Of a stretch of DNA of 64,000 nucleotides, positions 23,290-40,150 are shown one piece after another. A program made the translations under genes and the position numbers. The number at the start of each line of letters is the position of its first letter. The first letter of the stretch is position 1. The DNA comes from Ensifer adhaerens. GTDB lineage: Bacteria > Pseudomonadota > Alphaproteobacteria > Rhizobiales > Rhizobiaceae. Below the pieces are notes generated by a model. That model was not told the origin of the DNA and did no database searches. It saw nothing but the letters and a program-made list of their open reading frames with translations. The stretch covers positions 124,001 through 188,000 of the forward strand of contig NZ_LGAP01000005.1 of the NCBI RefSeq assembly GCF_001270265.1, written 5' to 3'.

Positions 23290-24524
23290 TGAACCTTCTC
23301 TCCATTTACGACCGTTTCATACCAGGCGACGAGAAGCTTGCGTTCCTCGTCGGATATGCCGGTGACATTGGCAGGCGGCATCGCGTGCGAGCGGCCGGCC
23401 TGCAGATAGATTTCACGCGCGTGATTTGCGATCTCGGTATCGGTCTCGAGCGTCACGCCCTTGGGCGGCACGACCAGCCCCTCCCAGCCGGGCTCCTTGG
23501 CATGGCACATGGAACAGCGGCCAAGGACGGTATCGCGAACCTTCGGAAAGGCTTCGGCCGTGACGAACGGCTGCTGCGCGGCTGAAACCTTCGCCTCCTC
23601 GTCACCGCTCAGGATCTTCGGCACGGTCGACAGCCACATGATCACGATGAAGAGCAGCGCGGTCGCAAGCCAGGTCCAGGTCGGATTGCCCTTGTCGGCA
23701 TGGCGCGTGTTGAAATAGTGGCGGATGGTCACGCCCATCAGGAACACCAGCGAGGCGATAATCCAGTTGTACTGTGTGCCGAACGCCAGCGGATAGTGGT
23801 TCGACAGCATCAGGAACAGCACCGGCAGCGTCAGGTAGTTGTTGTGCGTCGAACGCTGCTTGGCGATGACGCCGTATTTCGCGTCCGGCGTGCGGCCGGC
23901 GATCAGGTCTGCAACGACGATCTTCTGGTTCGGGATGATGATGAAGAACACGTTGGCCGACATGATCGTCGCGGTGAAGGCGCCGAGATGCAGGAAGGCG
24001 GCGCGGCCGGTGAAAAGCTGCGTATAGCCCCAGGCCATGGCGACGAGGATGAAATACAAAAGCACCATCAGCTTGGTGTTGTCGCGGCCGGCCGGCGACT
24101 TGCAGATCGTGTCATAGGCAAGCCAGCCGAACCCGATCGATGCCAGCGAAATCGCGATCGCCGTCGTCTTCGACACGTCAAGCACATTGGGATCGATGAG
24201 ATAGAGGTCTGCGCCGGCGTAATAGACCATGCACAGCATGCCGAACCCGGAAAGCCAGGTGACGTAGGATTCCCATTTGAACCAGATCAGGTGCTCCGGC
24301 ATGTTGGCCGGCGCCACCAGATACTTCTGGATGTGATAGAAGCCGCCGCCGTGAACCTGCCATTCCTCGCCATAGGCTCCAACCGGCAGATCGGCTCTTT
24401 TCTTCAGGCCAAGATCGAGCGCGACGAAATAAAACGACGAACCGATCCACGCGATACCGGTGATGACATGCAGCCATCTCATGGCAAAGGTGAGCCAATC
24501 CCAGGCTATGGCATACTCGTACAT
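23286..24524 (-). CDS. puuD: Membrane urate oxidase with cytochrome c domain
   Basis: A 412-aa PuuD-type urate oxidase, the membrane-bound alternative to cofactor-free uricase, thought to pass electrons from urate to the respiratory chain. About eight hydrophobic helices cover residues 10-305. A C-terminal periplasmic cytochrome c domain holds the haem motif C337-S-M-C340-H341 and a likely distal Met382 (S-H-A-M-P-P). GGAG precedes ATG 24524. It is the first gene of puuD-guaD and divergent from a LysR regulator. No soluble uricase is present, so this is the window's only urate-oxidising enzyme. Confidence 0.93.
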   Translation of the reverse strand: MYEYAIAWDWLTFAMRWLHVITGIAWIGSSFYFVALDLGLKKRADLPVGAYGEEWQVHGGGFYHIQKYLVAPANMPEHLIWFKWESYVTWLSGFGMLCMVYYAGADLYLIDPNVLDVSKTTAIAISLASIGFGWLAYDTICKSPAGRDNTKLMVLLYFILVAMAWGYTQLFTGRAAFLHLGAFTATIMSANVFFIIIPNQKIVVADLIAGRTPDAKYGVIAKQRSTHNNYLTLPVLFLMLSNHYPLAFGTQYNWIIASLVFLMGVTIRHYFNTRHADKGNPTWTWLATALLFIVIMWLSTVPKILSGDEEAKVSAAQQPFVTAEAFPKVRDTVLGRCSMCHAKEPGWEGLVVPPKGVTLETDTEIANHAREIYLQAGRSHAMPPANVTGISDEERKLLVAWYETVVNGEKVQ

Positions 24525-24598
24525 GCAATTCTCCCATTTCTCCGTGGCGCATTATGTGTCATTGCTGGAGGTCGCGGGAACGTCGCTGCTTCACCAAC

Positions 24599-24607
24599 AC
24601 TTTCAAA
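24599..24607. promoter_or_regulatory. ACTTTCAAA motif between puuD and LysR gene
   Basis: This nine-base core is shared exactly with the longer motif before hiuH/puuE (32362-32370) and the purine permease (39778-39786). Here it lies 74 bases before puuD and 64 before the LysR gene. Nine bases alone could be chance; its placement in a third purine control region is what makes it notable. Confidence 0.4.
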
Positions 24608-24671
24608 AAAAACTATAAAATCGCGACGGAATGGATGCGTTACATAAGGCCCGGAGGAGAGATCGGGAGGC

Positions 24672-25586
24672 ATGTCATATTTGGACAATGTGCGCGTCTT
24701 CGTACGCGTCGTAGAGCTTGGAACCCTGTCGGCGGCTGGTCGTGATCAGCGCGTAACACCGGCGGTTGCCAGCAATAGAATCAAAGAGTTGGAACGCCAT
24801 ATGGGCGTTCGGCTGTTCAATCGGACGACGCGAAAGCTGACCCCGACCGAGCACGGTCGTGTGTTCTACGACGGTGCCGTCAAGATTCTCGAAGCGGTCA
24901 ACGAGGCGGAAAATGCCATCGCGGATCTGTCGCACAATCCGAAGGGCGCGCTCAAGATTACCGCTCCGTTAGGGATAGGTCGGCGGCTGATCGCTTCGGG
25001 CATCCCCGAGTTTCACGACAAGTATCCGGATATCGAGGTGCGGCTCAGGCTCTCCGACCACAACGTCGACATCCTGTCGGAAGGGGTCGATGTCGCCTTC
25101 AAGCTCGGCATTCTCGAAGACTCGAACCTGCGCATGCGCGGCATCATGAATTGCGAGCGGGTCGTCTGTGGCGCACCCGCCTACTTCGAAAAACGTGGGA
25201 TACCGCAGACGCCGGACGAGCTCATCGCCGACAAACACGACTGTCTGCTGCTGCGTTACCCCGGGTCCAAGGAATACTTCTGGACGTTGCAGACGCCGGA
25301 GGGCGTCAGGAAATTTGAAGTGACCGGGCCTTATGATTCCGATGACGGTGACGTGCTGACGCAATGGGCGCTCGACGGGCGCGGCATCATCAACAAGCCG
25401 CTCTTCGAAGTGAAGAGCTACATCAATACCGGCGAGCTGGTACCAATTCTGGCGGCAACGCCGCCGCTCGGCGTGCAGCTGGCTGCAATCTACCCGCACA
25501 AGCGCTTCCAGGATCCGAAGGTGCGGCTGATGATCGACTATATGGCGGAGCGCTGTCAGCGGCTGATCGGCAAGATGCTCGCCTGA
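24672..25586 (+). CDS. LysR-family transcription regulator
   Basis: A 304-aa LysR-type regulator. Residues 4-62 form the winged HTH (L-S-A-A-G-R-D-Q-R-V-T-P-A-V-A-S-N-R-I-K), followed by a linker helix and a LysR substrate-binding domain (residues about 92-295). GGGAGG lies directly upstream of ATG 24672. It is divergent from puuD-guaD with a 147-base gap, the usual arrangement for a LysR regulator and its target, so control of urate/guanine degradation is likely. The inducer is unknown; urate or another purine intermediate would fit. Confidence 0.9.
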   Translation: MSYLDNVRVFVRVVELGTLSAAGRDQRVTPAVASNRIKELERHMGVRLFNRTTRKLTPTEHGRVFYDGAVKILEAVNEAENAIADLSHNPKGALKITAPLGIGRRLIASGIPEFHDKYPDIEVRLRLSDHNVDILSEGVDVAFKLGILEDSNLRMRGIMNCERVVCGAPAYFEKRGIPQTPDELIADKHDCLLLRYPGSKEYFWTLQTPEGVRKFEVTGPYDSDDGDVLTQWALDGRGIINKPLFEVKSYINTGELVPILAATPPLGVQLAAIYPHKRFQDPKVRLMIDYMAERCQRLIGKMLA

Positions 25587-27183: not shown

Positions 27184-28047
27184 TCAGGCGCCGACGCGCT
27201 TGCCTGGCTTGACCGACGAGACGGCGGGTGCTTCCCAATGGTAGTTCAGAGCGGCTGTCATGATCTCGGCGGCAGCCAGGGCTGCGATAACGGCGGGCCT
27301 CTTGTCCTTTACCGCCGTGCCGCCGATCGGGCAGACGAGGCGGTCGAAAAGATCGGGCCGGCCGATTTCCCGCGACAGCCAGCTCTTGAAGGTTGAACGC
27401 TTGGTCTTCGAACCGATCATCCCGACATAGGACGCGTCGTCACGCCTGAGCGCCTCGGCTGCAATCAGGAAGTCGAGCGCGTGGTCATGGGTGAGGATCA
27501 CGAAGGCGCTGCCGCGCGGGGCATCGCGGACCACCGCCTCGGGCATCGCCGTCAGACAAGTCTCGATGCCGTGAATGTCGGCGGCCGAAAGCTCATCCTC
27601 GCGCGTGTCGACAAGGATGGTGCGCACGGGGACGAGCGACAGCGCCATCGCCAGCGCATCGCCGACATGTCCTGCGCCGAAAACATAGACATGGGGACGA
27701 CTGGCAATCTCCAGATCGCTGCGTTCAATCAGCATGGCGGCTTTCTCCCGATCGATGCGCGTGAAGGCGAGCGCGACACGCCCGCCGCAACACTGGCCGA
27801 TCTCCGGCCCGAGCGGGATCGTCATGGTGTCGGCGCGGTCGCCGCGCTTGAGCGCACGCCGACCGTGGTCGATCGCCATATATTCGAGCTGGCCGCCGCC
27901 GATGGTGCCGAAAAGGCCGTCCGGCGCCACCAGCATCCAGGCGTCGGTGTCGCGTGGCGTCGAGCCGGCAGCCCCCGTCACCTCGACCAGCACGCAGTCC
28001 GGCTCGCGGCGCAGGAAATCCCTGATATCTTCTCGGCTCGCAACCAT
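27184..28047 (-). CDS. xdhC: Xanthine dehydrogenase accessory protein XdhC
   Basis: A 287-aa XdhC protein, which binds molybdenum cofactor, aids its sulfuration and loads it into xanthine dehydrogenase. The N-terminal XdhC/CoxI domain has V-E-V-T-G-A-A-G-S-T-P-R and G-T-I-G-G-G-Q-L-E; the C-terminal Rossmann part has V-F-G-A-G-H-V-G. The Q-C-C-G-G motif, with cysteines linked to cofactor binding in the family, is present. ATG 28047 is preceded by AAGGA; a TTG nine bases earlier is less likely. It is the last gene of hiuH-xdhA-xdhB-xdhC. Confidence 0.94.
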   Translation of the reverse strand: MVASREDIRDFLRREPDCVLVEVTGAAGSTPRDTDAWMLVAPDGLFGTIGGGQLEYMAIDHGRRALKRGDRADTMTIPLGPEIGQCCGGRVALAFTRIDREKAAMLIERSDLEIASRPHVYVFGAGHVGDALAMALSLVPVRTILVDTREDELSAADIHGIETCLTAMPEAVVRDAPRGSAFVILTHDHALDFLIAAEALRRDDASYVGMIGSKTKRSTFKSWLSREIGRPDLFDRLVCPIGGTAVKDKRPAVIAALAAAEIMTAALNYHWEAPAVSSVKPGKRVGA

Positions 28048-28059
28048 CGCTATCAATCC

Positions 28060-30405
28060 TTAAGCCACTGCCCCTTGCCTTGCGGCGGTCCGCAGCCGCT
28101 CGATTGCCATCAGCACCCGCTCCGGCGTTGCCGGCGCGTCGATGCGCGGAGGAATACGATACTCCGCTACGCTCGCGGCTGCCATCGACAAGGCCTCCAG
28201 GACCGAAATGCCCAGCATGAAAGGCGGTTCGCCCACGGCCTTCGAGCGGCGGATCGTTTCCTCGCGATTAACAGACCATTCGGCAAGGCGGACGTTGAAC
28301 ACACGCGGACGATCAGAGGCAAGCGGGATCTTGTAGGTCGACGGCGCATGCGTGCGCAGCCGCCCCTTGGCGTCCCACCATAGTTCCTCGGTGGTGAGCC
28401 AGCCCATGCCCTGGACGAAGGCGCCTTCGACCTGACCCAGATCCAATGCCGGGTTCAGCGACCGTCCGACATCGTGCAGGATGTCGGTGCGATCGACCTG
28501 ATATTCGCCGGTCAACGTATCGACGCTGACTTCAGAGCAGGACGCGCCATAGGCATAATAGAAGAACGGACGGCCGCGGCCCTCCGAGCGGTTCCAGTGG
28601 ATCTTCGGCGTCTTGTAGAAGCCGGCCGCCGAAAGCTGGATACGGGCGCCATAGGCGAGCTTGATGAATTCGCCGAAGGGCAGGCGTTCCGCGCCGATGC
28701 GCACGGTATTCGGTTCGAACGCGACATCGGCTTCGCCAACATTCCAGCGCTCGGCAGCAAAACGCACCAGCCGCGCCTTGATCTGCTGCGCCGCATCGGC
28801 GGCCGCCATGCCGTTCAGATCAGAACCGGAGGAGGCTGCCGTCGCCGACGTGTTCGGCACTTTGCCGGTCGTCGTCGCCGTGACCTTGACCCGATCGAGA
28901 TCGACCTGGAACTCGTCGGCCACCACCTGGGCAACCTTGGTGTAGAGCCCCTGCCCCATCTCGGTGCCACCGTGATTGAGGTGGATCGATCCGTCGGTAT
29001 AGACGTGCACCAAGGCGCCGGCCTGGTTGTACTCGGTCTTGGTGAACGATATGCCGAACTTGACCGGCGTCAACGCGATGCCGCGCTTGATGATGTGGTT
29101 TTCGCGGTTGAAGGCGATCACCGCCTTGCGACGCGCAGCGTAATCCGCCGACGTTTCGAGCTCGCCGATGATCCGACCGATGATGTTGTCTTCGACAGTC
29201 TGGTGGTAGGGCGTGAGATTGCGGCCCTCGCCGCCATAGAAGTTGAGCTTGCGGATTTCGAGCGGATCCTTGCCGACCGCATAGGCGACATCCTCGATCA
29301 TGCGCTCGCCGCCGACCATGCCCTGCGGGCCGCCGAAACCACGAAACGCGGTGTTCGAGACGGTGTTGGTCTTCAACGGCTTCGAGCGCAGACGGACGTT
29401 CGGATAGAAGTAGCAATTGTCGGCGTGAAAGAGCGCGCGATCGGTGACCGGCCCGGAGAGATCGGCGGAAAAGCCGCAGCGCGCCGCAAACACCGCGTCG
29501 ACCGCCTCGATGCGTCCCTCGTCGTCGAAGCCGACCTTGTAGTCGACATGGAAGTCGTGACGCTTGCCGGTGGCCGACATGTCGTCGTCCCGGTCGGGCC
29601 TGACCTTGACGGCGCAACGGTATTTCTTCGCGGCCAGGGCGGCCACGGCTGCGAAGATATTGGCCTGCGTCTCCTTGCCGCCGAAGCCGCCACCCATGCG
29701 GCGCACGTTCACAGTCACGGCGTTGGACGGCACGCCGAGCACGGTTGCCACCATGTGTTGGGTTTCGCTCGGATGCTGTGTCGAAGAATAGACCAGAACC
29801 TCATCGTCTTCGCCGGGAATGGCAAAGGAAATCTGGCCCTCGAGGTAGAAGTGGTCCTGGCCGCCGATGCGCATCTCGCCCTCGACGATGTTTTTCGTTT
29901 TGGCAAAACCGGCTTCGATGTCGCCACGCTCCAGCTTGAGCGGATCGATGACCAGCGGATAATTCGCGGCAGCGGCCTCCAGCACGTCTGTCACATGCGG
30001 CAGGTCACGGTATTCGACCTTGACCTTGACGGCTGCACGCCTTGCCGCTTCGCGCGATGTGGCGATGACGGCAAAGATCGGCTGGCCATGAAACTCGACC
30101 TTGCCGGTCGCAAATACCGGATCGTCGTGCTTGTGCGCGGGGCTGATGTCGTTTTCCCCCGGGATGTCGTCGGCGGTCAGGATGCCGATGACACCCTCGC
30201 TGGCGCTGACCGCGTCGAAATCGATCGACAGAATGTCGGCATGCGCGCGCTGCGACAGACCGAGATAACCGTGCAGAGTGCCGGTCGGCTCCGGAATATC
30301 GTCGATGTATTCGGCCGTTCCAGACACGTGTTTGTGGCCGGATTCGTGCCGCTCATTTTCGTGGACGCCACCGCGGATGCGGTCGATGGGCTGCATCACA
30401 TTCAT
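28060..30405 (-). CDS. xdhB: Xanthine dehydrogenase molybdenum-binding subunit
   Basis: A 781-aa large subunit carrying the molybdopterin centre that hydroxylates hypoxanthine and xanthine to urate. Family features: an N-terminal G-T-A-E-Y-I-D-D-I-P segment, G-G-G-F-G-G-K-E-T-Q for cofactor contact, F-R-G-F-G-G-P-Q-G, and the catalytic-glutamate region near the C-terminus (K-A-V-G-E-P-P-F). AGGAGG precedes ATG 30405, 12 bases after the xdhA stop; GTG 30414 is a weaker alternative. Read with xdhA upstream and xdhC downstream, it makes a complete XdhABC set. Confidence 0.96.
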   Translation of the reverse strand: MNVMQPIDRIRGGVHENERHESGHKHVSGTAEYIDDIPEPTGTLHGYLGLSQRAHADILSIDFDAVSASEGVIGILTADDIPGENDISPAHKHDDPVFATGKVEFHGQPIFAVIATSREAARRAAVKVKVEYRDLPHVTDVLEAAAANYPLVIDPLKLERGDIEAGFAKTKNIVEGEMRIGGQDHFYLEGQISFAIPGEDDEVLVYSSTQHPSETQHMVATVLGVPSNAVTVNVRRMGGGFGGKETQANIFAAVAALAAKKYRCAVKVRPDRDDDMSATGKRHDFHVDYKVGFDDEGRIEAVDAVFAARCGFSADLSGPVTDRALFHADNCYFYPNVRLRSKPLKTNTVSNTAFRGFGGPQGMVGGERMIEDVAYAVGKDPLEIRKLNFYGGEGRNLTPYHQTVEDNIIGRIIGELETSADYAARRKAVIAFNRENHIIKRGIALTPVKFGISFTKTEYNQAGALVHVYTDGSIHLNHGGTEMGQGLYTKVAQVVADEFQVDLDRVKVTATTTGKVPNTSATAASSGSDLNGMAAADAAQQIKARLVRFAAERWNVGEADVAFEPNTVRIGAERLPFGEFIKLAYGARIQLSAAGFYKTPKIHWNRSEGRGRPFFYYAYGASCSEVSVDTLTGEYQVDRTDILHDVGRSLNPALDLGQVEGAFVQGMGWLTTEELWWDAKGRLRTHAPSTYKIPLASDRPRVFNVRLAEWSVNREETIRRSKAVGEPPFMLGISVLEALSMAAASVAEYRIPPRIDAPATPERVLMAIERLRTAARQGAVA

Positions 30406-30417
30406 GGATCTCACCTC

Positions 30418-31899
30418 CTAGACGGCAACAGCGATGTTGCGGTCGAGCCGGATGTTTCCGGTCGCCTGTGTTTCGAGATAGAAGCGGCGCAGCAGGTTCT
30501 TGGCAACCAGCTGACGATACTCCGCCGAGGCCCGCCAATCGGTGAGCGGCGTGAAGTCCTGGTCGAAGGCGGAGATCGCCTGCTCGATCATTTCTTCGCG
30601 CCAAGCGTTGCCCATGAGCACAGCCTCGACATGAGCGGCTCGCTTCGGGGTTCCGGCCATGCCGCCAAAGGCGATCACCGCGTCCGTGACATCGCCGGCA
30701 GCATCGAACGTCAGGCGGAAGGCGCCGCAGACCGCGGTAATATCCTCATCCAGACGCTTGGTGATCTTGTAGACGGCAAAGCTGGCATCGGCTTCAAGGA
30801 AGGGGATGTGGACCGCCTCGACGAATTCGCCGGGCTCGCGATCCTGCTTGCCATAGGCGATGAAGAAATCTTCGAGCGCCACGGTGCGGCGGCGAGCGCC
30901 CTTGCGTAGCGTCACCGATGCGCCGAGTGCGATCAGTGCCGGCGGCGTATCACCGATCGGCGATCCGTTGGCGATGTTGCCGCCGACAGTGCCCATGTTG
31001 CGGACCTGCTGTCCGCCGATCCGGTCCCAAAGCTCGCGCAATTGCGGGAAGTGCTCGGTGATGACGGGATAGGCTTCGGCATAGCTGACACCGGCGCCAA
31101 GTGTTACGCCCTCCTCGCCGACAGTGATGCGGCGAAGCTCTTCGAGATGCGTGAGGTGCACGGCCGGCGCGATGTCGCGCATGAATTTCGTGACCCAGAG
31201 GCCGACGTCGGTCGAGCCGGCGACGATCGTCGCCTTCGGGTTGGCTTCGAGCACATCGGCGAAATCGTCGACGGAAGCCGGCAACATGAACAGCTCCGCA
31301 CCCTCGCCGATCACCACGCGGCGACCGTCCTGAAGGGCGGCGAGTTCGCCGGCGAGCCGGTCGCGCTCGGCAAACAGCGGATCCGTGCCGAGATCACCAA
31401 TGGTCGAAATCGCCTCCGCCGCGCGAATGATCGCTGCATAGCCGGTGCAGCGACAGAGGTTCCCCTGCAGCGCCTTCTCGATTTCGGTGACCGAAGGCTT
31501 CGGATTTTCCATCCAGAGCCCATAGAGCGACATGACGAAGCCGGGCGTGCAGAAGCCGCATTGCGAAGCATGCGTCTGGACCATCGCCTGCTGGACGGGA
31601 TGGAGCGGGCCGCCAGGCGTTGCCAGCGAATCCACCGTCACCACGTGACAGCCGTCGAGCGAACCGACGAAACGGATGCAGGCATTGACGGATTCATACT
31701 TCAGCTGCCCGCCGAGCAGCCGGCCGACCAGCACTGTGCAGGCGCCGCAGTCGCCTTCGGCACAGCCTTCCTTGGTTCCGCGCAGGTTGCGATCGATGCG
31801 CAGGAAATCGAGCAATGTCTGCACCGCAGAAACGTCGGAAAGCTCGACAAGGCGATGGTTCAGGAGGAAACGGATCGTGTTGCGGATCTGGATGGTCAT
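30418..31899 (-). CDS. xdhA: Xanthine dehydrogenase small subunit (2Fe-2S and FAD)
   Basis: A 493-aa subunit that moves electrons from the molybdenum centre to NAD+. Residues 1-90 form a plant-type 2Fe-2S domain (C46, C51, C54, C74). A second 2Fe-2S domain follows with Q-C-G-F-C-T-P-G and N-L-C-R-C-T-G. From about residue 195 lies the FAD-binding domain (V-A-G-S-T-D-V-G; N-M-G-T-V-G-G-N-I-A-N-G-S-P-I-G-D), and then the CO-dehydrogenase flavoprotein C-terminal domain. All cluster ligands are present. It lies 6 bases after hiuH and 12 before xdhB in one operon. Confidence 0.96.
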   Translation of the reverse strand: MTIQIRNTIRFLLNHRLVELSDVSAVQTLLDFLRIDRNLRGTKEGCAEGDCGACTVLVGRLLGGQLKYESVNACIRFVGSLDGCHVVTVDSLATPGGPLHPVQQAMVQTHASQCGFCTPGFVMSLYGLWMENPKPSVTEIEKALQGNLCRCTGYAAIIRAAEAISTIGDLGTDPLFAERDRLAGELAALQDGRRVVIGEGAELFMLPASVDDFADVLEANPKATIVAGSTDVGLWVTKFMRDIAPAVHLTHLEELRRITVGEEGVTLGAGVSYAEAYPVITEHFPQLRELWDRIGGQQVRNMGTVGGNIANGSPIGDTPPALIALGASVTLRKGARRRTVALEDFFIAYGKQDREPGEFVEAVHIPFLEADASFAVYKITKRLDEDITAVCGAFRLTFDAAGDVTDAVIAFGGMAGTPKRAAHVEAVLMGNAWREEMIEQAISAFDQDFTPLTDWRASAEYRQLVAKNLLRRFYLETQATGNIRLDRNIAVAV

Positions 31900-31905
31900 T
31901 GCTGA

Positions 31906-32277
31906 TCAGCTCCCGCGGTAGGTCGAATAGCCGTAAGGCGACAAGAGCAGCGGCACATGGTAGTGCGCCGCCTGGTCGTCGATGCCGAAGCGGATCGGGA
32001 TGACGTCGAGAAACGGGTTGGCGCCGCGCGCACTTTCAGAGCCGAGATAGTCGCCGGCGTGAAAGTGCAGCTCGTAGGTGCCAGCCTGCATCAGCGATCC
32101 GCTCAACAGCGGCTGATCGCAGCGTCCGTCGTCATTGGTCCTGACCGAGCGCAGGTGTGTCTGCTGCTCGCCCTCGATGCGATAGAGCTCGATGCGCAGG
32201 TCCTTGGCCGGTTTGCCACTGGCCGTATCGAGCACATGGGTCGTCAGACGGCCGTCGTTTCCACCATGAGATTGCAT
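31906..32277 (-). CDS. hiuH: 5-hydroxyisourate hydrolase
   Basis: A 123-aa transthyretin-related protein that hydrolyses 5-hydroxyisourate, the product of urate oxidation, to OHCU. The start region [14 protein letters not shown] and the diagnostic C-terminal Y-R-G-S tetrapeptide are present, which separate the enzyme from vertebrate transthyretin. GGGAGGAG precedes ATG 32277; an upstream in-frame start is not supported. It heads the hiuH-xdhA-xdhB-xdhC operon and is divergent from puuE-uraD, which acts next in the pathway. Confidence 0.95.
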
Positions 32278-32359
32278 GCGTCTTGCTCCTCCCGAAGTCA
32301 GCTTTCCAGTTGGCAGTATCCTGGTGGGCCGGTGCATTGAGAAGCGGGCGGATCATTCG

Positions 32360-32375
32360 AGACTTTCAAATTTTT
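32360..32375. promoter_or_regulatory. Shared 16-bp purine motif, hiuH/puuE divergon
   Basis: AGACTTTCAAATTTTT is found exactly again at 39776-39791 upstream of the purine permease, and its ACTTTCAAA core at 24599-24607. It lies in the 171-base gap between divergent hiuH and puuE-uraD, 82 and 73 bases from the two starts, about where an operator or promoter for both would be. Confidence 0.6.
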
Positions 32376-32448
32376 TGGGGGGAATGACGTCGGAAAAATC
32401 CCGTTAGGAATCAGGCCGCAGAGACAATTGTCTGGAGGACTGCTTCAA

Positions 32449-33864
32449 ATGAGATACCCCCGCGATCTTCACGGCCATGGCCCGAACCCCACCACCGTCT
32501 GGCCCGACGAGGCGCGGATTGCCGTGCAGTTCGTGATCAATTACGAGGAAGGCGGCGAGAACTGCGTGCTGCATGGCGATGCCGCATCAGAGGCTTTTCT
32601 GTCGGAAATCGTCGGCGCGCAGGCTTGGCCCGGACAGCGCCACTGGAACATGGAATCGATCTATGAATACGGCGCTCGCGCCGGTTTCTGGCGGCTGCAT
32701 CGCATGTTCACGGAAAAGGGCGTGCCGGCGACGGTCTATGGCGTCGCAACGGCGCTAAAGCGCTCGCCGGCCCAGGTCGCGGCCATGCAGGACGCCGGCT
32801 GGGAGATCGCCTCGCATGGTCTGAAATGGATCGAGCACAAGGACTTCAGGCCGGAACGGGAGCGGGAAGAGATTGCCGAAGCGATCCGGCTGCACACCAT
32901 CGTTACCGGCGAACCACCGCGCGGATGGTATACTGGCCGCTGTTCGGACAACACGCTCGACCTGGTTACCGAGACCGGCGGCTTCGACTACGTGTCGGAC
33001 AGCTATGCCGACGACCTGCCCTATTGGCATGAACATGCCGGCCGCCATCAGCTCGTCATTCCCTACACGCTCGACACCAACGACATGCGCTTTGCGACCG
33101 CGCAGGGTTTTAATAGCGGCGACCAGTTCTTCAGCTATCTCAAAGACAGCTTCGACGTGCTCTATGCGGAAGGTGCAGCGGGTGCACCGAAGATGCTCAG
33201 CATCGGTCTTCACTGCCGCCTCGTGGGCAGGCCCGGTCGCGCTGCAGCGCTTGCCCGCTTCCTCGACTACGTCAAAGGCCACGAGAAGGTCTGGCTGGCC
33301 CGTCGCATCGATATCGCACGCCACTGGGCAAAGACGTATCCCTTCAAGGCCTGGGACGATCGTCCGTCACGGCTTTCCGAGGCCGATTTTGTCGCCCGCT
33401 TCGGTGGCGTTTTCGAGCATTCCGAATGGATCGCCAGGCGCGCATTTGCCGGCGAACTGTCGGCCGCCAACGACACGGCCATCGGACTTGCGGCAGCCCT
33501 CACCGCAGTCTTCCGCGAGGCGAAGCCAGAGGAACGTCTTGCCGTGCTCAACGCCCACCCGGATCTGGCCGGCAAGCTGGCGCAGGCAAAGCGGCTCACC
33601 GAAAGCTCGACCAGCGAACAGGCCTCCGCCGGCCTCGGCGCCCTGACCGATGCCGAACGCGCCCGCTTCACCGAACTCAACAGCGCCTATGTCGAGAAGT
33701 TCGGTTTTCCCTTCATCATCGCCGTCAGGGGACGTAGCAAGGATGACATCCTGGCAGCCTTCGAAAGCCGGATCGGGAACTATCGCGACAGCGAGCTTGA
33801 GACGGCATGCCGGCAGGTGGAAAGGATTGCGCTTCTCCGCCTCAAAGACATGCTGCCGAGCTGA
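32449..33864 (+). CDS. puuE-uraD: PuuE-type allantoinase fused to OHCU decarboxylase
   Basis: A 471-aa fusion of two purine enzymes. Residues about 1-300 form a polysaccharide-deacetylase-fold allantoinase (PuuE), unrelated to metal amidohydrolase AllB; it opens allantoin to allantoate. Residues about 310-471 form OHCU decarboxylase (UraD), which makes S-allantoin, with the catalytic histidine in N-A-H-P-D-L-A-G-K and the glutamate in S-E-Q-A-S-A-G-L. The polypeptide thus runs two successive steps, with the domains in reverse pathway order. GGAGG precedes ATG 32449 by 10 bases. alc and allA follow on the same strand. Confidence 0.94.
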   Translation: MRYPRDLHGHGPNPTTVWPDEARIAVQFVINYEEGGENCVLHGDAASEAFLSEIVGAQAWPGQRHWNMESIYEYGARAGFWRLHRMFTEKGVPATVYGVATALKRSPAQVAAMQDAGWEIASHGLKWIEHKDFRPEREREEIAEAIRLHTIVTGEPPRGWYTGRCSDNTLDLVTETGGFDYVSDSYADDLPYWHEHAGRHQLVIPYTLDTNDMRFATAQGFNSGDQFFSYLKDSFDVLYAEGAAGAPKMLSIGLHCRLVGRPGRAAALARFLDYVKGHEKVWLARRIDIARHWAKTYPFKAWDDRPSRLSEADFVARFGGVFEHSEWIARRAFAGELSAANDTAIGLAAALTAVFREAKPEERLAVLNAHPDLAGKLAQAKRLTESSTSEQASAGLGALTDAERARFTELNSAYVEKFGFPFIIAVRGRSKDDILAAFESRIGNYRDSELETACRQVERIALLRLKDMLPS

Positions 33865-33873
33865 GCCTGGGCG

Positions 33874-34896
33874 ATGACGATCGACAGCGTCGGCCTTCCT
33901 GACTTCGCCCGCAAGGCGATCAACCTTGCCTCCGCCGGTCTCGGTGCGAGGCCGGTTTTTGCCACCGACGAGTTCTTCGCCCCGCTCGAGCGACTGCTGC
34001 AGGATTGCCCCGCCGTCTTTCATCCGGGCGTCTACGACGAACACGGCAAATGGATGGATGGGTGGGAAACACGGCGTCGGCGCGGTCCCGGCCATGACCA
34101 TGCGATCGTCGCGCTTGCGGCAACCGGCCGGATCGCCGGTTTCGACGTCGATACCGCGCATTTTACCGGCAACTTTCCTTCCGCCTGCGCTATCGATGCC
34201 TGCCTGGCCCCGAACGGGCCTGATGAAACCACCGTGTGGACCGAACTGTTGGGCATGAACCCGCTTGGTCCAAGCGCCCATCACTACTTCACAGCGGTTG
34301 CCGACGGGATCTGGAGCCATGTCAGGCTGCGCATCTATCCCGACGGTGGCGTTGCCCGGTTGCGGGTCTACGGCACGCCCGAACTCGACCGGGATCGGAT
34401 CGGCGACGAGGCAGTCGATCTTGCATCCTCGCTGCTCGGCGGCCGGATCGTCGTCTTCTCCAACGGCCACTACGGCCATCAACGGCTGCTGGCACCCGGT
34501 CGGGGGATCAACATGGGCGACGGCTGGGAAACGCGGCGGCGGCGCGAACCCGGCAACGACTGGATCATTGTCAGGCTTGCCGCGCGCACGTCGATCGAAC
34601 GCATCATCGTCGATACTGCGCATTTCAAAGGTAATTACCCGGACGCCTGTTCGGCGCAGGCGGCTGATCTCGGCGAGGCGGACTGCGCGGTCGATGCCTT
34701 GGTAACCGCGTCCTCCCTCTACTGGCAGGAAGTGCTGCCGCGCCAAAAGCTGAGCGCCGACGGCATCCATGACTACGGCCACGGCCTGATCAAAGAGATC
34801 GGTCTCGCCACCCATGTTCGTCTCAACATCTACCCCGATGGCGGCGTCAGCCGGCTGCGTGTCTTCGGGCGCATTGCAAGGGCCGGCACCCCATAA
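33874..34896 (+). CDS. alc: Allantoicase
   Basis: A 340-aa allantoicase, which hydrolyses allantoate to ureidoglycolate and urea. Two homologous repeats make up the protein: residues about 15-165 and 180-335 each contain D/G-G-W-E-T-R-R-R-R followed by a D-T-A-H-F-x-G-N-x-P/Y segment and end with R-L-x-I-Y-P-D-G-G-V-x-R-L-R-V. The gene starts nine bases after puuE-uraD and precedes allA. Its presence, with no AllC-type allantoate amidohydrolase, shows that urea rather than ammonia is released at this step. Confidence 0.95.
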   Translation: MTIDSVGLPDFARKAINLASAGLGARPVFATDEFFAPLERLLQDCPAVFHPGVYDEHGKWMDGWETRRRRGPGHDHAIVALAATGRIAGFDVDTAHFTGNFPSACAIDACLAPNGPDETTVWTELLGMNPLGPSAHHYFTAVADGIWSHVRLRIYPDGGVARLRVYGTPELDRDRIGDEAVDLASSLLGGRIVVFSNGHYGHQRLLAPGRGINMGDGWETRRRREPGNDWIIVRLAARTSIERIIVDTAHFKGNYPDACSAQAADLGEADCAVDALVTASSLYWQEVLPRQKLSADGIHDYGHGLIKEIGLATHVRLNIYPDGGVSRLRVFGRIARAGTP

Positions 34897-34925
34897 ACGA
34901 CCAACATAGGACGGAGGAGCGTCAC

Positions 34926-35411
34926 ATGAAGGAGATCGAGATAAAGCCGCTGACACGCGAGGCATTCGCGCCATTCGGCGACGTGATCGAGACTGAAAAC
35001 GCCTACAGTTTCCCCATCAACGGCGGAAAATGCACCCGCTACCATGACCTCGCCAAGATCGAAACCGCCGGCGAAAAGGCCCGGCCGATGATCAGCCTGG
35101 TACGCGGCGAGCCCTACCCGCTGCCATTGAAACTGACCATGGTCGAACGCCACCCCCTCGGCAGTCAGGCCTTCATTCCCTTGTCCGACAACCCTTTCCT
35201 GGTTGTCGTTTCGGAAGAGACGAAAGAAGGCCCGAGCGAGCCGATTGCCTTCCGGACTGCGCCAGGCCAGGGCGTCAACATCGCCCGCAATGTCTGGCAT
35301 GGCATCCTGACGCCGCTCGACGACGTCTCCGACTTCGCCGTGATCGACCGTGGCGGCGAAGGCGTCAACCTTGAAGAGCATTTCTTCGAGGAACCATTCC
35401 TGCTGCGTTAA
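34926..35411 (+). CDS. allA: Ureidoglycolate lyase
   Basis: A 161-aa cupin-fold lyase that splits ureidoglycolate to glyoxylate and urea. Family features: F-A-P-F-G-D-V-I near the N-terminus, the central M-V-E-R-H-P-L-G-S-Q-A-F-I-P-L metal-site region, and N-V-W-H-G near the C-terminus. GGAGGAG precedes ATG 34926. It ends the puuE-uraD, alc, allA operon; its product glyoxylate is the substrate of Gcl encoded at 10.6-12.4 kb. Confidence 0.95.
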   Translation: MKEIEIKPLTREAFAPFGDVIETENAYSFPINGGKCTRYHDLAKIETAGEKARPMISLVRGEPYPLPLKLTMVERHPLGSQAFIPLSDNPFLVVVSEETKEGPSEPIAFRTAPGQGVNIARNVWHGILTPLDDVSDFAVIDRGGEGVNLEEHFFEEPFLLR

Positions 35412-35433
35412 ACGGCAGGTTTGAAATCAGAGG

Positions 35434-35465
35434 ACGGACCCGCTCGAACCGAGTGGGTGCCGTCA
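35434..35465. terminator. Hairpin between convergent allA and AraC-type gene
   Basis: GACGGACCCGCTCG pairs with CGAGTGGGTGCCGTC across a short AAC loop, with one bulge and one mismatch. It lies between two converging genes and may serve both; there is no long T-tract. Confidence 0.45.
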
Positions 35466-35481
35466 TCTCTTCATGCGCGAA

Positions 35482-36339
35482 CTAGTACCCACCGTCGCGC
35501 CTGAACTTCGTCGGGGTGTAACCGGTCAAACGGCGAAAATCGCGAGAGAAATGATAGGGGTCGGGATAGCCGCAAAGCGCGGCGACCGCTGAAACCTTCG
35601 CTCCCGGCTCGACCAGCTGACGTTTCGCCTGGTTGATGCGCTCGTGGCGCAGCCAATCCATCGGCGTCGTACCGATCGAATCCTTGAATCTGCGAAACAG
35701 TTGCGACGGGCTGAGACGTGCGAGAGCGGCAAGTTCGTTGATCGTCCAGGCCTTTGCCAGGTCCTTCCTGACCGCCGCAAGCACGCCGGTTATCCGATCG
35801 CGCAATGCAGGATCGTCGGTTGGTGCGGCACCGGCCAATCGCGGCGCACTCAAATTGGCGATGAGACCGGCAATCGCCGCGCTGACCAGCGCATCCGTTG
35901 CCGACGTGCGGTCATCGAGATAGCCGATGACAGCCTGGAACGCGGCCCGTGCCGCTTCGCGATCGGAAGGTTCGAACAGCGGCGACTGTTGCACATTGAG
36001 GAAGGCATAGACATCGTCCAGCCCGTGCCCCTCGACACCCATCCAGAGATAGCGCCACTCCCCGGCATCGGGCGCACAACGATGCTCATAGGCCTGCGAC
36101 GTGTCCAGCCAGATCGACATGTCCTTTTGGGCGACGAACCGCTGCCCGCGCACCTCGATCAATCCCTGCCCCGCAGTGGTGTGAACGAGCACGTGCTGGT
36201 GGAAGCGCTTGCGGATCGGCGGCTCCTCAGGCAACGCCACCCGAGCGCCGGCAACCAGCGCCGTGTAGGGAAACACCCCGGCGAGACGCGCCGGTGTGTG
36301 GAAATAGATCTCTTCGCGCTCAGCCAACATGTGCGACAT
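35482..36339 (-). CDS. AraC-family transcription regulator
   Basis: A 285-aa AraC/XylS-type regulator. Residues about 20-100 form a cupin-like sensing domain (H-Q-H-V-L-V-H-T-T-A-G-Q-G) and residues about 185-285 hold two helix-turn-helices (T-I-N-E-L-A-A-L-A-R-L-S-P-S-Q-L-F-R-R-F; V-S-A-V-A-A-L-C-G-Y-P-D-P-Y-H-F-S-R-D-F), ending in the usual G-Y-T-P-x-x-F-R. ATG 36339 or 36330 could be the start. It is divergent from the cytochrome P450-ferredoxin pair, its most likely target. The inducer is unknown. Confidence 0.88.
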   Translation of the reverse strand: MSHMLAEREEIYFHTPARLAGVFPYTALVAGARVALPEEPPIRKRFHQHVLVHTTAGQGLIEVRGQRFVAQKDMSIWLDTSQAYEHRCAPDAGEWRYLWMGVEGHGLDDVYAFLNVQQSPLFEPSDREAARAAFQAVIGYLDDRTSATDALVSAAIAGLIANLSAPRLAGAAPTDDPALRDRITGVLAAVRKDLAKAWTINELAALARLSPSQLFRRFKDSIGTTPMDWLRHERINQAKRQLVEPGAKVSAVAALCGYPDPYHFSRDFRRLTGYTPTKFRRDGGY

Positions 36340-36442
36340 TCTGCATTTCGATGCGAGTTTTGTCCATTATCTTGCGAGAGCGCTGCATTTCCTCGGACCA
36401 CCTGATGACGTTATCCTGCAGCTTTTGCAGGGAGTGCGGCAA

Positions 36443-37690
36443 ATGGCAGAAACCTTATCGAAACGCAGCCAAGTGGAGTTCGCTCCCCTGTCCCCCGATT
36501 TTGCGCGCGATCCCTATCCAACCTACAAGGCGCTGCGCGACAAGGGCGGTCTGCACTATTTCGAGGATTTCGACATCTGGCTGGCTTCGCGCTTCGAGGA
36601 TGTCTCGGCAATCGTCATGGACAAGCGCATGGTCCGCTCGCTCGACGACATCGCCACGGCCGAGGAAATCGCCAGGATCCAGCGCGCCGGCAACTGGCAC
36701 GACATGCCGCATCACTCACGCTTCGTGCAGTTCAGCCTGCTCGACAGCGATGGCGCCGTACACGACCGGTTGCGCAGGCAGGTTTTCAAACTGTTCACGC
36801 CGGCGATGATCGCCAAGCTGCGCGATCAGATCCAGGCCTATGTCGACCGGCTGATCGACAGCCTCGCCGATCGCGGTCAGATCGATTTCGTCGATGATCT
36901 CGCCGCCCACGTTCCCGGCCACATCATCGGCCGCCTGCTCGGCGTTCCCGACGAGGACTGTCCGCAACTGCGCATCTGGTCGGAAAACATCGTCCAGTTC
37001 TTCGACGTCGACCGGTCGGATGAACGCAAGCGCATCGCCGAGACCAACACCACCGAATTCTACGAATACCTGACAGCCCTGAAACACGAGCGCGAGCGAA
37101 GCCCCAAGGACGATCTGATCTCGGTCCTGATCGAGGCCGAGCGCGCCGGCGCGATGAATTCAGACGAGTTCATTTCGACCTGCATGCTGATCCTGATGGC
37201 CGGCCACGGGTCGACGATCGACGTGCTTGGAAGCGGCATGCATGCGCTGCTGCGCTTTCCCGAACAGATGGCGCGGCTGCGCCGGGATCCGGCACTGATC
37301 CAGACGGCGGTGCAGGAGATGTTCCGCTATGAATCGCCGCTGCCGTTCTTCCATCGTCACTGCATCGAGGACGTGGAAATCGGCGGACGGACTTTCGCCC
37401 GCGGCACGAAGTTCGGATTGCTCTATGGCGCTGCCAACCGCGATCCCAAGCAGTTCGAAATCGCCGATATGTTCGACATCGGCCGTACCCCCAACAGGCA
37501 CCTGGCTTTCGGCGGCGGCGTGCACTTCTGCCTCGGCAATCATCTGGCCCGGCTGGATATGGACATCATCTTCAGCACCTTGCTGCGGCGCTTCCCGACG
37601 ATCGAGCTTGTCGATGCGCAGCCGGAATACAAGCGCGGCCTCTCCGTGCGCGGCCCGAAGCGGCTGCAGATCGCCATCAAGGCGGCCTGA
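36443..37690 (+). CDS. Cytochrome P450
   Basis: A 415-aa soluble class I bacterial P450 monooxygenase. Visible landmarks: I-helix oxygen-activating motif A-G-H-G-S-T (T is the usual threonine), K-helix E-M-F-R (E-x-x-R), the P-F-F-H-R region after it, and the haem loop F-G-G-G-V-H-F-C-L-G with C363 as the iron ligand. GGGAG lies eight bases before ATG 36443; an upstream in-frame start would overlap the divergent regulator. The 2Fe-2S ferredoxin gene follows by 68 bases and probably supplies electrons. No ferredoxin reductase is near. The substrate cannot be inferred. Confidence 0.93.
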   Translation: MAETLSKRSQVEFAPLSPDFARDPYPTYKALRDKGGLHYFEDFDIWLASRFEDVSAIVMDKRMVRSLDDIATAEEIARIQRAGNWHDMPHHSRFVQFSLLDSDGAVHDRLRRQVFKLFTPAMIAKLRDQIQAYVDRLIDSLADRGQIDFVDDLAAHVPGHIIGRLLGVPDEDCPQLRIWSENIVQFFDVDRSDERKRIAETNTTEFYEYLTALKHERERSPKDDLISVLIEAERAGAMNSDEFISTCMLILMAGHGSTIDVLGSGMHALLRFPEQMARLRRDPALIQTAVQEMFRYESPLPFFHRHCIEDVEIGGRTFARGTKFGLLYGAANRDPKQFEIADMFDIGRTPNRHLAFGGGVHFCLGNHLARLDMDIIFSTLLRRFPTIELVDAQPEYKRGLSVRGPKRLQIAIKAA

Positions 37691-37758
37691 GCGCCAGCAG
37701 TCGCGCGAGCCTGCGTGACGCTATTCCAACAATTTCAGATTTGAGTGGAGACCAAACA

Positions 37759-38079
37759 ATGCCCAGGATTGTCTTTGTGGATGCCGAAGGGAAAACGACC
37801 GAAGTCAAGGCCGAGATCGGCCAGTCGGTGATGTCGGCAGCCGTTCAGAACGGCATCGATGCCATCGCCGCGGAATGCGGCGGCTCCTGCGCCTGCGGCA
37901 CCTGCCACTGTTACATCGATGCTGCGTGGGGCGAGAAGCTGCCATCGCCCGACTATCAGGAGCAGGACATGCTGGATTGCGTCGTCAACCCGGAGGATAG
38001 AAGCCGGCTCAGCTGTCAGATCACGGTCTCCGCTGCGCTCGACGGGCTCGTCGTGCATCTGCCGGCCGGGCAATATTGA
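37759..38079 (+). CDS. 2Fe-2S ferredoxin, putidaredoxin type
   Basis: A 106-aa adrenodoxin/putidaredoxin-type ferredoxin. The cluster ligands are the first three cysteines of the C-G-G-S-C-A-C-G-T-C-H-C region in the C-x5-C-x2-C pattern, plus the later cysteine in L-S-C-Q-I. GGAG precedes ATG 37759; an in-frame start six codons earlier is rejected. Its place directly after the P450 gene and the two hairpins downstream mark it as the end of a P450-ferredoxin transcript. It needs a reductase encoded elsewhere. Confidence 0.93.
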   Translation: MPRIVFVDAEGKTTEVKAEIGQSVMSAAVQNGIDAIAAECGGSCACGTCHCYIDAAWGEKLPSPDYQEQDMLDCVVNPEDRSRLSCQITVSAALDGLVVHLPAGQY

Positions 38080-38127
38080 TCGAGGCTGTCGCGCGACCAG
38101 ATCAAAACGTCACCCCAAATGTAAAAA

Positions 38128-38160
38128 GACCGGAGCCGCAGGAATGCTTGCGGTCCGGTC
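38128..38160 (+). terminator. Hairpin downstream of ferredoxin
   Basis: GACCGG (38128-38133) pairs with CCGGTC (38155-38160) and the inner CCGCA with TGCGG. It lacks a T-tract but lies 48 bases after the ferredoxin stop, ahead of a better terminator. Confidence 0.35.
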
Positions 38161-38191
38161 AGCTTTCGCGGGGGAAGTTCTGAGATATCGG

Positions 38192-38222
38192 GGCCGGGGC
38201 ATTGTCTGCCCCAGCCTTTTTT
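38192..38222 (+). terminator. Rho-independent terminator of P450-ferredoxin operon
   Basis: GGCCGGGGC and GCCCCAGCC form a stem with one mismatch around a short loop, followed by six Ts (38217-38222) on the plus strand. It ends just before the converging purine permease stop. Confidence 0.75.
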
Positions 38223-38223
38223 C

Positions 38224-39516
38224 TTATTCGGCGAAGAAGGCGAAGCGGACGATGAAGAGCGCCGCAACGATCTGTGTTGCCGGATGAATGACACTCCACT
38301 TGCCGGTGAACACCTTGAGCACGACATAGCTCACAAAGCCGAAGGCAAGGCCGTTGGCGATCGAGTAGGTGAAGGGCATGGCAAGCGCGGTGAGCGCGGC
38401 AGGCGCCGCTTCCGTCAGGTCGTCCCAATCGACTTCCGTCAGTTCGCGCATCATCAGGCCGGCGACATAGAGCAGTGCCGGTGCCGTCGCATAGGACGGG
38501 ACGGCCGCTGCCAGCGGCGAGAAGAACAGCGCGGCAAGGAAGAGCACGCTGACGGTCAGTGCCGTCAGACCGGTGCGGCCGCCAGCCTGAACGCCCGAGG
38601 CGCTTTCGACATAGGCCGTGGTGCTGCTGGTGCCGATCAGCGAACCGGCAACGATGGCGGTGCTGTCGGCGAGAAGCGCGCGGCCGAGGCGGCTCGGCTT
38701 GCCTTCTTCCACCAGCTTGGCGCGCTTGGCCACACCGATCAGCGTACCCGTGGCATCGAAGACTTCAACGAGCACGAAGACGAGGATCACGTGGACTAGG
38801 CCGCCATGCAGAGCGCCCATGATATCGAGCTGCATGAAGGTCGGTGCGATGCTCGGCGGCACGGAAACGATGCCCTTGAACTCGCTGACACCCAGCAGCA
38901 TCGACAGGATGGTGACGACGAGGATGCCGATCAGGATCGAGCCGCGGACCTTCAGCGAATCGAGCACGGCAATGACGAAGAAGCCAAGGATCGCCAGCAG
39001 CGGCCCGGTCTGCTTCAGATCGCCGAGGCCGACCAGCGTTGCCGGGTTGTCGACGACGATGCCAGCATTCTTCAGTGCGATGATGCCGAGGAAGAGACCG
39101 ATACCCGTCGCAATCGCGCTTCTGAGCGAATGCGGGATACCGGCGATCAGCCAGCTGCGCACCCCTGTTACGGTCAGGATCAGGAAGATCACGCCCGAGA
39201 TGAACACGGCGCCCAAAGCCTGCTGCCAGCTGAAGCCCAGCGCTGCTACGACGGTAAAGGCGAAGAAGGCGTTGAGGCCCATGCCCGGTGCCATGCCGAT
39301 CGGCCAGTTGGCGACGAGTGCCATGACGGCCGAGCCGAGCGCCGCAGCAATACAGGTCGCGACGAAGACGGCATCCCTATCCATGCCCGTGGTCGACAGA
39401 ATGTCGGGGTTGACGAAGATGATGTAGGACATCGTCAGGAATGTCGTAACGCCGGCGATCACCTCGGTGCGCACGGACGAGTCATGCTCTTTTAACTTGA
39501 AAAGTCGTTCAAACAT
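38224..39516 (-). CDS. NCS2-type guanine/hypoxanthine permease (AzgA-like)
   Basis: A 430-aa purine permease of the AzgA/GhxP branch of the NCS2 family, expected to take up guanine, hypoxanthine or adenine by proton symport. It has the family's N-terminal F-K-L-K-E-H-x-S-x-V-R-T-E-V-I-A-G-x-T-T-F-L-T-M-S-Y-I pattern (residues about 5-32), about twelve hydrophobic segments, and the E-S-A-S-G-V-x-A-G-G-R-T-G-L-T segment. GGAGG lies five bases before ATG 39516. It stands alone between the P450 and copper genes but shares a 16-base upstream motif with the xanthine/allantoin operons. Confidence 0.92.
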   Translation of the reverse strand: MFERLFKLKEHDSSVRTEVIAGVTTFLTMSYIIFVNPDILSTTGMDRDAVFVATCIAAALGSAVMALVANWPIGMAPGMGLNAFFAFTVVAALGFSWQQALGAVFISGVIFLILTVTGVRSWLIAGIPHSLRSAIATGIGLFLGIIALKNAGIVVDNPATLVGLGDLKQTGPLLAILGFFVIAVLDSLKVRGSILIGILVVTILSMLLGVSEFKGIVSVPPSIAPTFMQLDIMGALHGGLVHVILVFVLVEVFDATGTLIGVAKRAKLVEEGKPSRLGRALLADSTAIVAGSLIGTSSTTAYVESASGVQAGGRTGLTALTVSVLFLAALFFSPLAAAVPSYATAPALLYVAGLMMRELTEVDWDDLTEAAPAALTALAMPFTYSIANGLAFGFVSYVVLKVFTGKWSVIHPATQIVAALFIVRFAFFAE

Positions 39517-39776
39517 ATTTCCTCCCTTGGCGGCGTCGCCACGACGCAGCCGAACGACAGAGATCGGGACACAGTCTCCTCCAGGACCCGACCAGTGCAT
39601 TTCGATCATCCCCGAATTATCCGGCGCGATCACATCACGGACCGTTTGCGGCCCGTGCCGGGCGGGCGATCGTCCGCCCCCTTGAGACGACGCGAATGCC
39701 CTTGTGCACAGCCTGCGGATTGTGCGTCTTCCTGCGGCCGACCGCTAGCCGTCCATTCCAGGGTTCGGCGATGAAA
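39517..39776 (-). promoter_or_regulatory. Long leader region of the purine permease
   Basis: About 260 bases separate the permease start from the shared purine motif, and no gene is supported here. Read on the minus strand the region has several potential stems: GCACA/TGTGC near 39690-39724, a GGGCGG/CCGCCC hairpin around 39661-39680, and AGACG/CGTCT around them. A structured 5' leader, perhaps a riboswitch, is possible, but I could not match it to a known purine riboswitch core. The rest of the 436-base gap up to copZ holds the shared motif and a copper promoter. Confidence 0.35.
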
Positions 39777-39791
39777 GACTTTCAAATTTTT
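39776..39791. promoter_or_regulatory. Shared 16-bp purine motif, permease copy
   Basis: AGACTTTCAAATTTTT is identical to 32360-32375. Here it overlaps a perfect GAAAG-A-CTTTC palindrome at 39773-39783 that the other copy lacks. It is 260 bases before the permease start and 162 bases before copZ; a role for the permease fits the shared purine theme better. Confidence 0.55.
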
Positions 39792-39891
39792 CGGAGCATT
39801 TGCGGCCAACCGGCAGGCCGATTTGTGATCTTTCGCCACCGGTTTCAGCGGCCGACGAAGCGCCGCGGAAAAAATATCGTCGGACGGCCTC

Positions 39892-39922
39892 TTGACCTTC
39901 CAACGGTGGGAAACCCCATGTT
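39892..39922 (+). promoter_or_regulatory. CueR-type promoter of copZ
   Basis: A TTGACC -35 (39892-39897) and CATGTT -10 (39917-39922) are separated by 19 bases, the over-long spacer typical of MerR-family promoters. The spacer holds TTCC-N7-GGAA dyad symmetry. The same architecture occurs at 40265 and 40888, and cueR is encoded nearby. It is 31 bases upstream of copZ. Confidence 0.8.
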
Positions 39923-39952
39923 CTTCTCACATCGAAAAGAAGGAGACAAGCG

Positions 39953-40150
39953 ATGCAGAATTACAAGATCGACAACATGACCTGCGGACATTGCGCCGGC
40001 AACGTACAAAAGGCGATCCTGAGCGTTGATCCGCAGGCAACCGTCAAGGTCGATCTCGGTTCACGCGAAGTCAGTGTGGAAACCGTCGCCGCACCCGGCC
40101 CGATCGCCGAAGCGTTGAAGGCGGCAGGCTACGAGAGCCTCCAGCTCTAA
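39953..40150 (+). CDS. copZ: Copper chaperone, HMA domain
   Basis: A 65-aa single heavy-metal-associated domain. The metal motif is M9-T-C11-G-H-C14, with a ferredoxin-like fold expected over the whole chain and the usual end A-L-K-A-A-G-Y-E. It should carry Cu(I) to the P-type ATPase CopA encoded 0.8 kb downstream. AAGGAG precedes ATG 39953 and a CueR-type promoter lies just upstream, so copper should induce it. Confidence 0.93.
   Translation: MQNYKIDNMTCGHCAGNVQKAILSVDPQATVKVDLGSREVSVETVAAPGPIAEALKAAGYESLQL

Follow-up and report, generated by a model that had tools for sequence, protein, structure and literature searches.

PunR and AllS of Escherichia coli are LysR-type regulators of purine and allantoin genes, with targets other than those considered here, and HucR leaves its DNA on binding urate; the DNA sites of HucR and PecS differ from the operator that is the subject of this work. 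HucR and PecS are described as urate regulators of the MarR type (PMC5487221). XdhR of Cupriavidus necator, which is LysR-type and named for xanthine dehydrogenase, was found by a screen of divergent regulator–target pairs and is listed in a table of that report with a 16-fold induction by xanthine and a Km of 13 µM (PMC7057948). Here we analyzed a 64,000-nucleotide stretch of Ensifer adhaerens DNA (contig NZ_LGAP01000005.1, positions 124,001–188,000; the window), in which a short motif recurs in the control regions of purine genes. Our analysis indicates that this motif very probably serves as operator for the LysR-type protein whose gene lies at 24672–25586; the protein would be an autoregulated activator of purine uptake and oxidation. 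Regulation by a LysR-type transcriptional regulator (LTTR) is already known as a kind, and the purine regulon is new; no paper assigning the regulator or the operator was found in the open-access literature, the search having covered neither subscription journals nor regulon databases. Purines and ureides serve as currencies of nitrogen exchange at legume roots and nodules. For purine catabolism in root-nodule bacteria and their relatives, the locus provides a regulator, an operator and a list of targets that can be tested. The operator could be used for regulon annotation, and the LysR protein is a candidate purine sensor.

The 16-mer AGACTTTCAAATTTTT occurs exactly at 32360–32375 and at 39776–39791, and no further copy appeared in the window when up to three mismatches were allowed. 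Shuffled windows contained a mean of 0.06 matches, and two or more were reached in one of 100 shuffles. The core, ACTTTCAAA, is present at three places in the window (24599, 32362 and 39778), a number reached in none of 100 shuffles. When the whole genome (7,459,544 bases) was searched with up to two mismatches, the 16-mer was recovered at the same two places only and the reversed control pattern was not recovered at all. The motif is real. On the minus strand it reads AAAAATTTGAAAGTCT and its core TTTGAAAGT, and both point toward hiuH-xdh, the permease gene and puuD-guaD. In addition, the hiuH site adjoins puuE and the puuD site adjoins lysR, two genes of the plus strand. A sequence-only reading of this stretch had claimed two exact 16-mers and a third core next to purine genes read from the minus strand, had judged chance an unlikely cause and had suggested an operator or promoter common to the purine genes, to which the LysR protein might bind. 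The repeats, their orientation and their rarity were all confirmed by these searches, and random scatter through the genome was looked for and not found.

Matching stretches for each of the three regions were present in all 16 genus genomes, that of E. adhaerens included, and the core was kept in all 48 loci. Loss of the motif from close relatives was thus not seen, and the shared operator suggested earlier gains support from this three-place conservation together with the lack of scatter in the genome. We also built a sequence-only site model from 54 of the 61 listed sites, omitting seven AT-rich puuD sites of distant relatives. In its own genome the model gave three matches of 21.6–22.7 bits and a next match of 14.4 bits, so that the scan revealed no further regulon member above 14.4 bits. 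Each of the 16 genus genomes contains exactly three matches of at least 20 bits, located at the puuD/lysR, hiuH/puuE and permease sites; two of the 16 carry a further weak match, of 14.4 and 14.9 bits.

Across the family, the site and the lysR gene co-occur. A LysR relative (E ≤ 1e-60) was present in 107 of the 199 genomes sampled and hiuH in 182. From the 108 LysR places in these 107 genomes we examined 80 regions, together with 40 hiuH regions from the 92 genomes without LysR, and counted cores lying within 320 nt upstream of a gene, using whole upstream stretches only. With lysR in the region, the core preceded puuD in 68 of 74 cases and hiuH in 42 of 62; the corresponding counts without lysR were 0 of 10 and 1 of 40. 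Where the LysR identity was at least 63%, the core preceded lysR in all 57 regions, puuD in all 56 and hiuH in 42 of 49; one of the seven hiuH misses (L123) has the core before xdhA instead. These exact-core counts are independent of the site model. Twelve second copies of hiuH, in genomes with lysR, lie behind allA and show no operator, except that L279 has a single bare core. With a threshold of 40% identity, the 80 lysR regions contained puuD in 74 cases, puuE in 64, hiuH in 62, xdhA, xdhB and xdhC in 60 each, guaD in 58, allA in 57, alc in 5 and the permease gene in 4. The E. adhaerens genome has a second purine-degradation cluster (G000:C12:571542-578114; L026, L069 and L275) with two puuE-like pieces and relatives of allA, hiuH, guaD and puuD in another order; no core was found in these three loci.

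In a model scan of the 199 family genomes (E ≤ 0.02, with stricter filters), 97 genomes had a match; lysR is present in 92 of these (out of 107 genomes with the gene) and absent from the other 5 (out of 92 genomes lacking it). The matches in the latter five (G016, G090, G107, G195 and G203) are all weak, with E values of 0.0068–0.0184. Eight regions with extra matches were sampled. Those in G117 and G188 are permease sites, that in G145 is the hiuH site of its genome, and that in G148 belongs to a further copy of the puuD region, situated at the end of a contig. The extra matches in G209, G175, G203 and G195 adjoin no reference gene, the one in G209 lying about 1.4 kb from a 25% xdhB relative, and these four are probably due to chance.

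A set of named loci gave a similar picture. It holds the best 80 of 196 relatives by LysR similarity (83–99% identical) and includes Ensifer, Sinorhizobium, Rhizobium, Shinella, Phyllobacterium and one record titled Methylobacterium; 14 loci repeat earlier ones and 66 have a lysR that is not in the earlier loci. Among the 80 loci the core precedes lysR in 80 of 80, puuD in 79 of 80 and hiuH in 63 of 63, while the control genes gave 1/79 for guaD, 1/75 for xdhC, 1/65 for xdhA, 0/53 for puuE, 0/29 for allA and 0/1 for the permease gene. For the 66 new loci the counts are 66/66 (lysR), 65/66 (puuD) and 53/53 (hiuH), with controls of 1/65 (guaD), 1/61 (xdhC), 1/54 (xdhA), 0/43 (puuE), 0/29 (allA) and 0/1 (permease). 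The single puuD miss is L361, a record titled Methylobacterium brachythecii, in which LysR is 83% identical and puuD only 43% identical; there, one core stands 303 nt upstream of guaD and another 68 nt upstream of xdhC, and the xdhC core has the hiuH-site flank TTGAAAGTCTCGAAGGA. Co-occurrence in the family sample and in the named loci thus points to the LysR protein as the probable partner of the motif, in agreement with the earlier suggestion.

By its domains the protein is LysR-type. It has an N-terminal HTH_1 domain (Pfam PF00126, 64.6 bits, cut-off 26.6) and a C-terminal LysR_substrate domain (Pfam PF03466, 106.8 bits, cut-off 28), and its gene has the arrangement of an LTTR regulon, being divergent from puuD with the site between the two and the core upstream in all 80 named loci. 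None of the 25 listed of 51 matching NCBIfam families reaches its cut-off. The scores for PunR (NF008294, 45.6 bits versus a cut-off of 345), YafC (NF040888, 201.4 versus 470) and TtdR (NF007315, 181.6 versus 398) all fall short. The nearest solved relatives are 3mz1, a putative transcriptional regulator, and 3hhg, of the LysR family. In Rhodobacterales (Pseudosulfitobacter, Defluviimonas), LysR relatives of 53–58% identity lie beside puuD, xdhA or hiuH; the exact core is absent there, and TTTTTTGAAGCAGCT or TTTTTTGATGCTGCT takes its place between puuD and lysR. Paracoccus denitrificans has CTGAAAGTCTT between xdhA and lysR, Methylobacterium has a 44% LysR relative inside a purine cluster, and in Azospirillum (L271, 49%) lysR is separated by more than 4 kb from the closest of the reference genes. 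A Pseudosulfitobacter plasmid (L269:3974-7392) carries two LysR relatives, of 58% and 56% identity; one gene is divergent from xdhA, the other from puuD, and the pair looks like a regulator that was duplicated and split between these two targets. In S. meliloti ml47 (L076:6550-7462) tblastn recovers lysR as two overlapping pieces and no CDS is annotated, which could reflect a frameshift; in S. meliloti 1021 (L274) the match is single and full-length.

Alignment on the core gives tATTtTC-N11-GAAAGTcaTcG for the puuD/lysR sites and atTcCC...aAAa.TTTGAAAGtcTTtt for the hiuH sites, and the permease site contains the perfect palindrome TGAAAG-T-CTTTCA. A T-N11-A box in a single register fits site 2 (TGAAAGTCTCGAA) and site 3 (TGAAAGTCTTTCA), and the family consensus of site 1 is the partial dyad ATTtTC-N11-GAAAGT. 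We scanned 20–79 nt after the core for −10-like hexamers (TATAAT-like, with A2 and T6 and at least four matches). In the puuD sites these peak at 41 nt (30 of 69), 42 nt (11) and 44 nt (6), against a mean of 1.42 per position; in the hiuH sites at 53 nt (19 of 43), 42 nt (9) and 43 nt (5; mean 0.87); and in the permease sites at 54 nt (16 of 21) and 53 nt (5; mean 0.40). A hexamer at 41–44 or 53–54 nt is present in 49 of 69 puuD, 32 of 43 hiuH and 21 of 21 permease sites, leaving 20 puuD and 11 hiuH sites with none, and six control offsets gave a hexamer in 1 puuD, 5 hiuH and 0 permease sites. The two core-to-hexamer distances are about one helical turn apart. With the −10 element at its usual place, the core is predicted to lie at about −62 to −55 or −74 to −66. 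Such a position would suit an LTTR recognition site, which lies about 50–75 bases upstream of the transcription start.

We infer DNA binding, activation, autoregulation and the inducer as follows. The LysR protein would bind a bipartite site (ATTyyC, about 11 bases, TTTGAAAGT) in front of each of its proposed targets, puuD-guaD, hiuH-xdhABC and the permease gene. Following the pattern of other LysR-type regulators, the protein may become an activator of the three promoters on binding a purine base, for example xanthine, and the site between puuD and lysR may, by similar analogy, let the protein limit its own synthesis. A wider proposal, which we hold tentatively and lean slightly against, is that one LysR-type protein and three operators form a complete, closed purine-scavenging regulon of the Ensifer/Sinorhizobium group. 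The protein would sense a midway purine base (xanthine or urate) and jointly drive uptake, the deamination of guanine, the oxidation of xanthine and membrane-bound urate oxidation; promoter strength would be tuned by the two geometries, about one DNA turn apart, and a single regulator lineage whose operator changes would extend through Rhizobiales and Rhodobacterales.

Several points weigh against the LysR protein as the regulator of the motif. The genomes compared are related, with counts that are not independent, and those without lysR are often devoid of the entire gene arrangement, a full puuD upstream stretch being available in 10 only. Seven of the 49 hiuH regions at or above 63% LysR identity, all at 67–70%, have no core, and below 63% a core precedes lysR in 12 of 23 regions, puuD in 12 of 18 and hiuH in none of 13; the hiuH copy was therefore lost or changed first in distant relatives. 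All training sites of the model came from genomes that have lysR, those of this window among them, and its scan therefore supports the lysR link and is not independent proof of it. Weak matches were lost to the stricter filters of the family scan, and 15 of the 107 genomes with a LysR relative have no model match, 14 of them at 51–61% LysR identity and one (G135) at 65%. Site 1 does not fit the classical T-N11-A box, and the hexamer rule and offsets were set after the alignments of related sequences had been seen. Finally, HxlR lies near lysR in two S. meliloti records, and the oxidoreductase is also kept in S. meliloti.

These points leave room for another regulator, encoded elsewhere, that binds the motif and for which lysR is merely a fellow target in the cluster. 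The lysR gene carries the site itself, so that site and gene could travel together as targets, and the proposed binding by LysR comes from sequence comparison. We consider this explanation unlikely. The core is upstream of lysR in every region at or above 63% LysR identity and thins to 12 of 23 as LysR diverges, and 39 of the 40 hiuH regions from genomes without lysR have no core. In the examined regions, to which the search for regulators was confined, the AraC (35482) and HxlR (26777) genes of the window were both rejected as candidates, since neither has a relative in any of the 80 lysR regions at 40% identity or more, HxlR lying near lysR in S. meliloti however; the P450, ferredoxin and oxidoreductase genes likewise gave 0 of 80.

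It is very improbable that the motif is a plain promoter part (−35 box or A-tract UP element) that no dedicated regulator recognizes. TTGAAA does resemble a −35 hexamer and A/T tracts flank the motif, but in the 20–79 nt scanned the recurrent −10-like hexamers lie 41–44 or 53–54 nt from the core and not at about 17 nt, and the −35 box was rejected on this spacing. A promoter part would also be expected to show no dependence on lysR, and would hardly be limited to three sites per genus genome. Scarcely credible, finally, is a motif inside a structured RNA leader, for which the 235–270 nt between core and start codon of the permease gene in 21 sequences would leave space. Rfam gave no match in the window at gathering score, the only level applied at site 1, and none up to E = 5 at 32200–32500 and 39400–40000; the consensus fold of the 21 permease leaders reaches only −24 kcal/mol, from folding without a covariation test. 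These leaders differ between genera except in the core, a TAGCG block and CACAAT, and the predicted −10 elements are downstream of the core. With empty Rfam scans and a weak fold, an RNA element was rejected. An operator bound by the LysR protein thus remains by far the favored explanation.

The features of the window are collected in Table 1. An ATG at 32337 is not conserved in the alignment of the 16 genus genomes and the conserved start of hiuH is at 32277, which is probably the start used; puuE probably starts at the ATG at 32449, and the permease gene at that at 39516. Site 2 may be shared by puuE-alc-allA and the hiuH operon; no site facing puuE was found, and none of the 53 named loci with puuE has the core upstream of it. 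The core-to-start stretch of the permease gene (window 39517–39785, minus strand) has blocks conserved within the genus. The stretch separating allA from the permease gene holds genes for an AraC regulator, a P450 and a ferredoxin (35482–38079), which are in none of the 80 lysR regions examined.

Table 1 Features of the purine locus, in window coordinates
Feature	Position	Strand	Basis or remark
Site 1, putative operator core TTTGAAAG, puuD/lysR divergent region	24600–24607	−	motif search and alignment
Site 1, left half ATTTTATAG	24613–24621	−	family consensus ATTtTC-N11-GAAAGT
Predicted −10 of puuD-guaD, CATAAT	24551–24556	−	43 nt after core
LysR-type regulator gene	24672–25586	+	HTH_1 and LysR_substrate domains, co-occurrence with site
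puuD-guaD, proposed target operon 1	21937–24524	−	
puuD, membrane urate oxidase	23286–24524	−	
guaD	21937–23289	−	
Site 2, putative operator core, hiuH/puuE divergent region	32363–32370	−	exact 16-mer 32360–32375
Site 2, left half CATTCCCCCC	32377–32386	−	
Predicted −10 of hiuH-xdhABC, GATACT	32315–32320	−	42 nt after core
hiuH-xdhA-xdhB-xdhC, proposed target operon 2	27184–32277	−	
puuE-alc-allA, divergent from hiuH	32449–35411	+	
Site 3, putative operator core, permease promoter	39779–39786	−	exact 16-mer 39776–39791
TGAAAG-T-CTTTCA palindrome at site 3	39772–39784		
Predicted −10 of permease gene, CACAAT	39719–39724	−	54 nt after core
NCS2-type permease, proposed target 3	38224–39516	−	Pfam Xan_ur_permease

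The pSymB replicon of S. meliloti 1021 (L274) carries the same cluster, with a full-length LysR of 89% identity and all three sites. Its gene is perhaps SM_b21291, a tag matched by gene order only, the record itself being unannotated. SM_b21291 is among the LysR regulators found only in a bacteroid network, where it is listed without a purine function, and the words purine and xanthine are absent from the main text of that report (PMC11387232). The S. meliloti genes SMb21286-21288 are reported to belong to purine metabolism and to fall jointly when nitrogen is limiting, and another xdh pair is linked there to another LysR gene, SMb20847 (PMC5596199). The fall of SMb21286-21288 fits the model as reported and is no test of it.

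The nearest tested analogue that we found is XdhR of C. necator, which like the Ensifer protein is LysR-type and which takes its name from xanthine dehydrogenase; unlike XdhR as described, the proposed Ensifer regulon also includes puuD-guaD and the permease gene (PMC7057948). The gene order at site 1 recalls hucR, which is divergent from the uricase gene as lysR is from puuD here (PMC5487221), but HucR and PecS belong to another protein family, the MarR type, than the LysR-type regulator of this locus.

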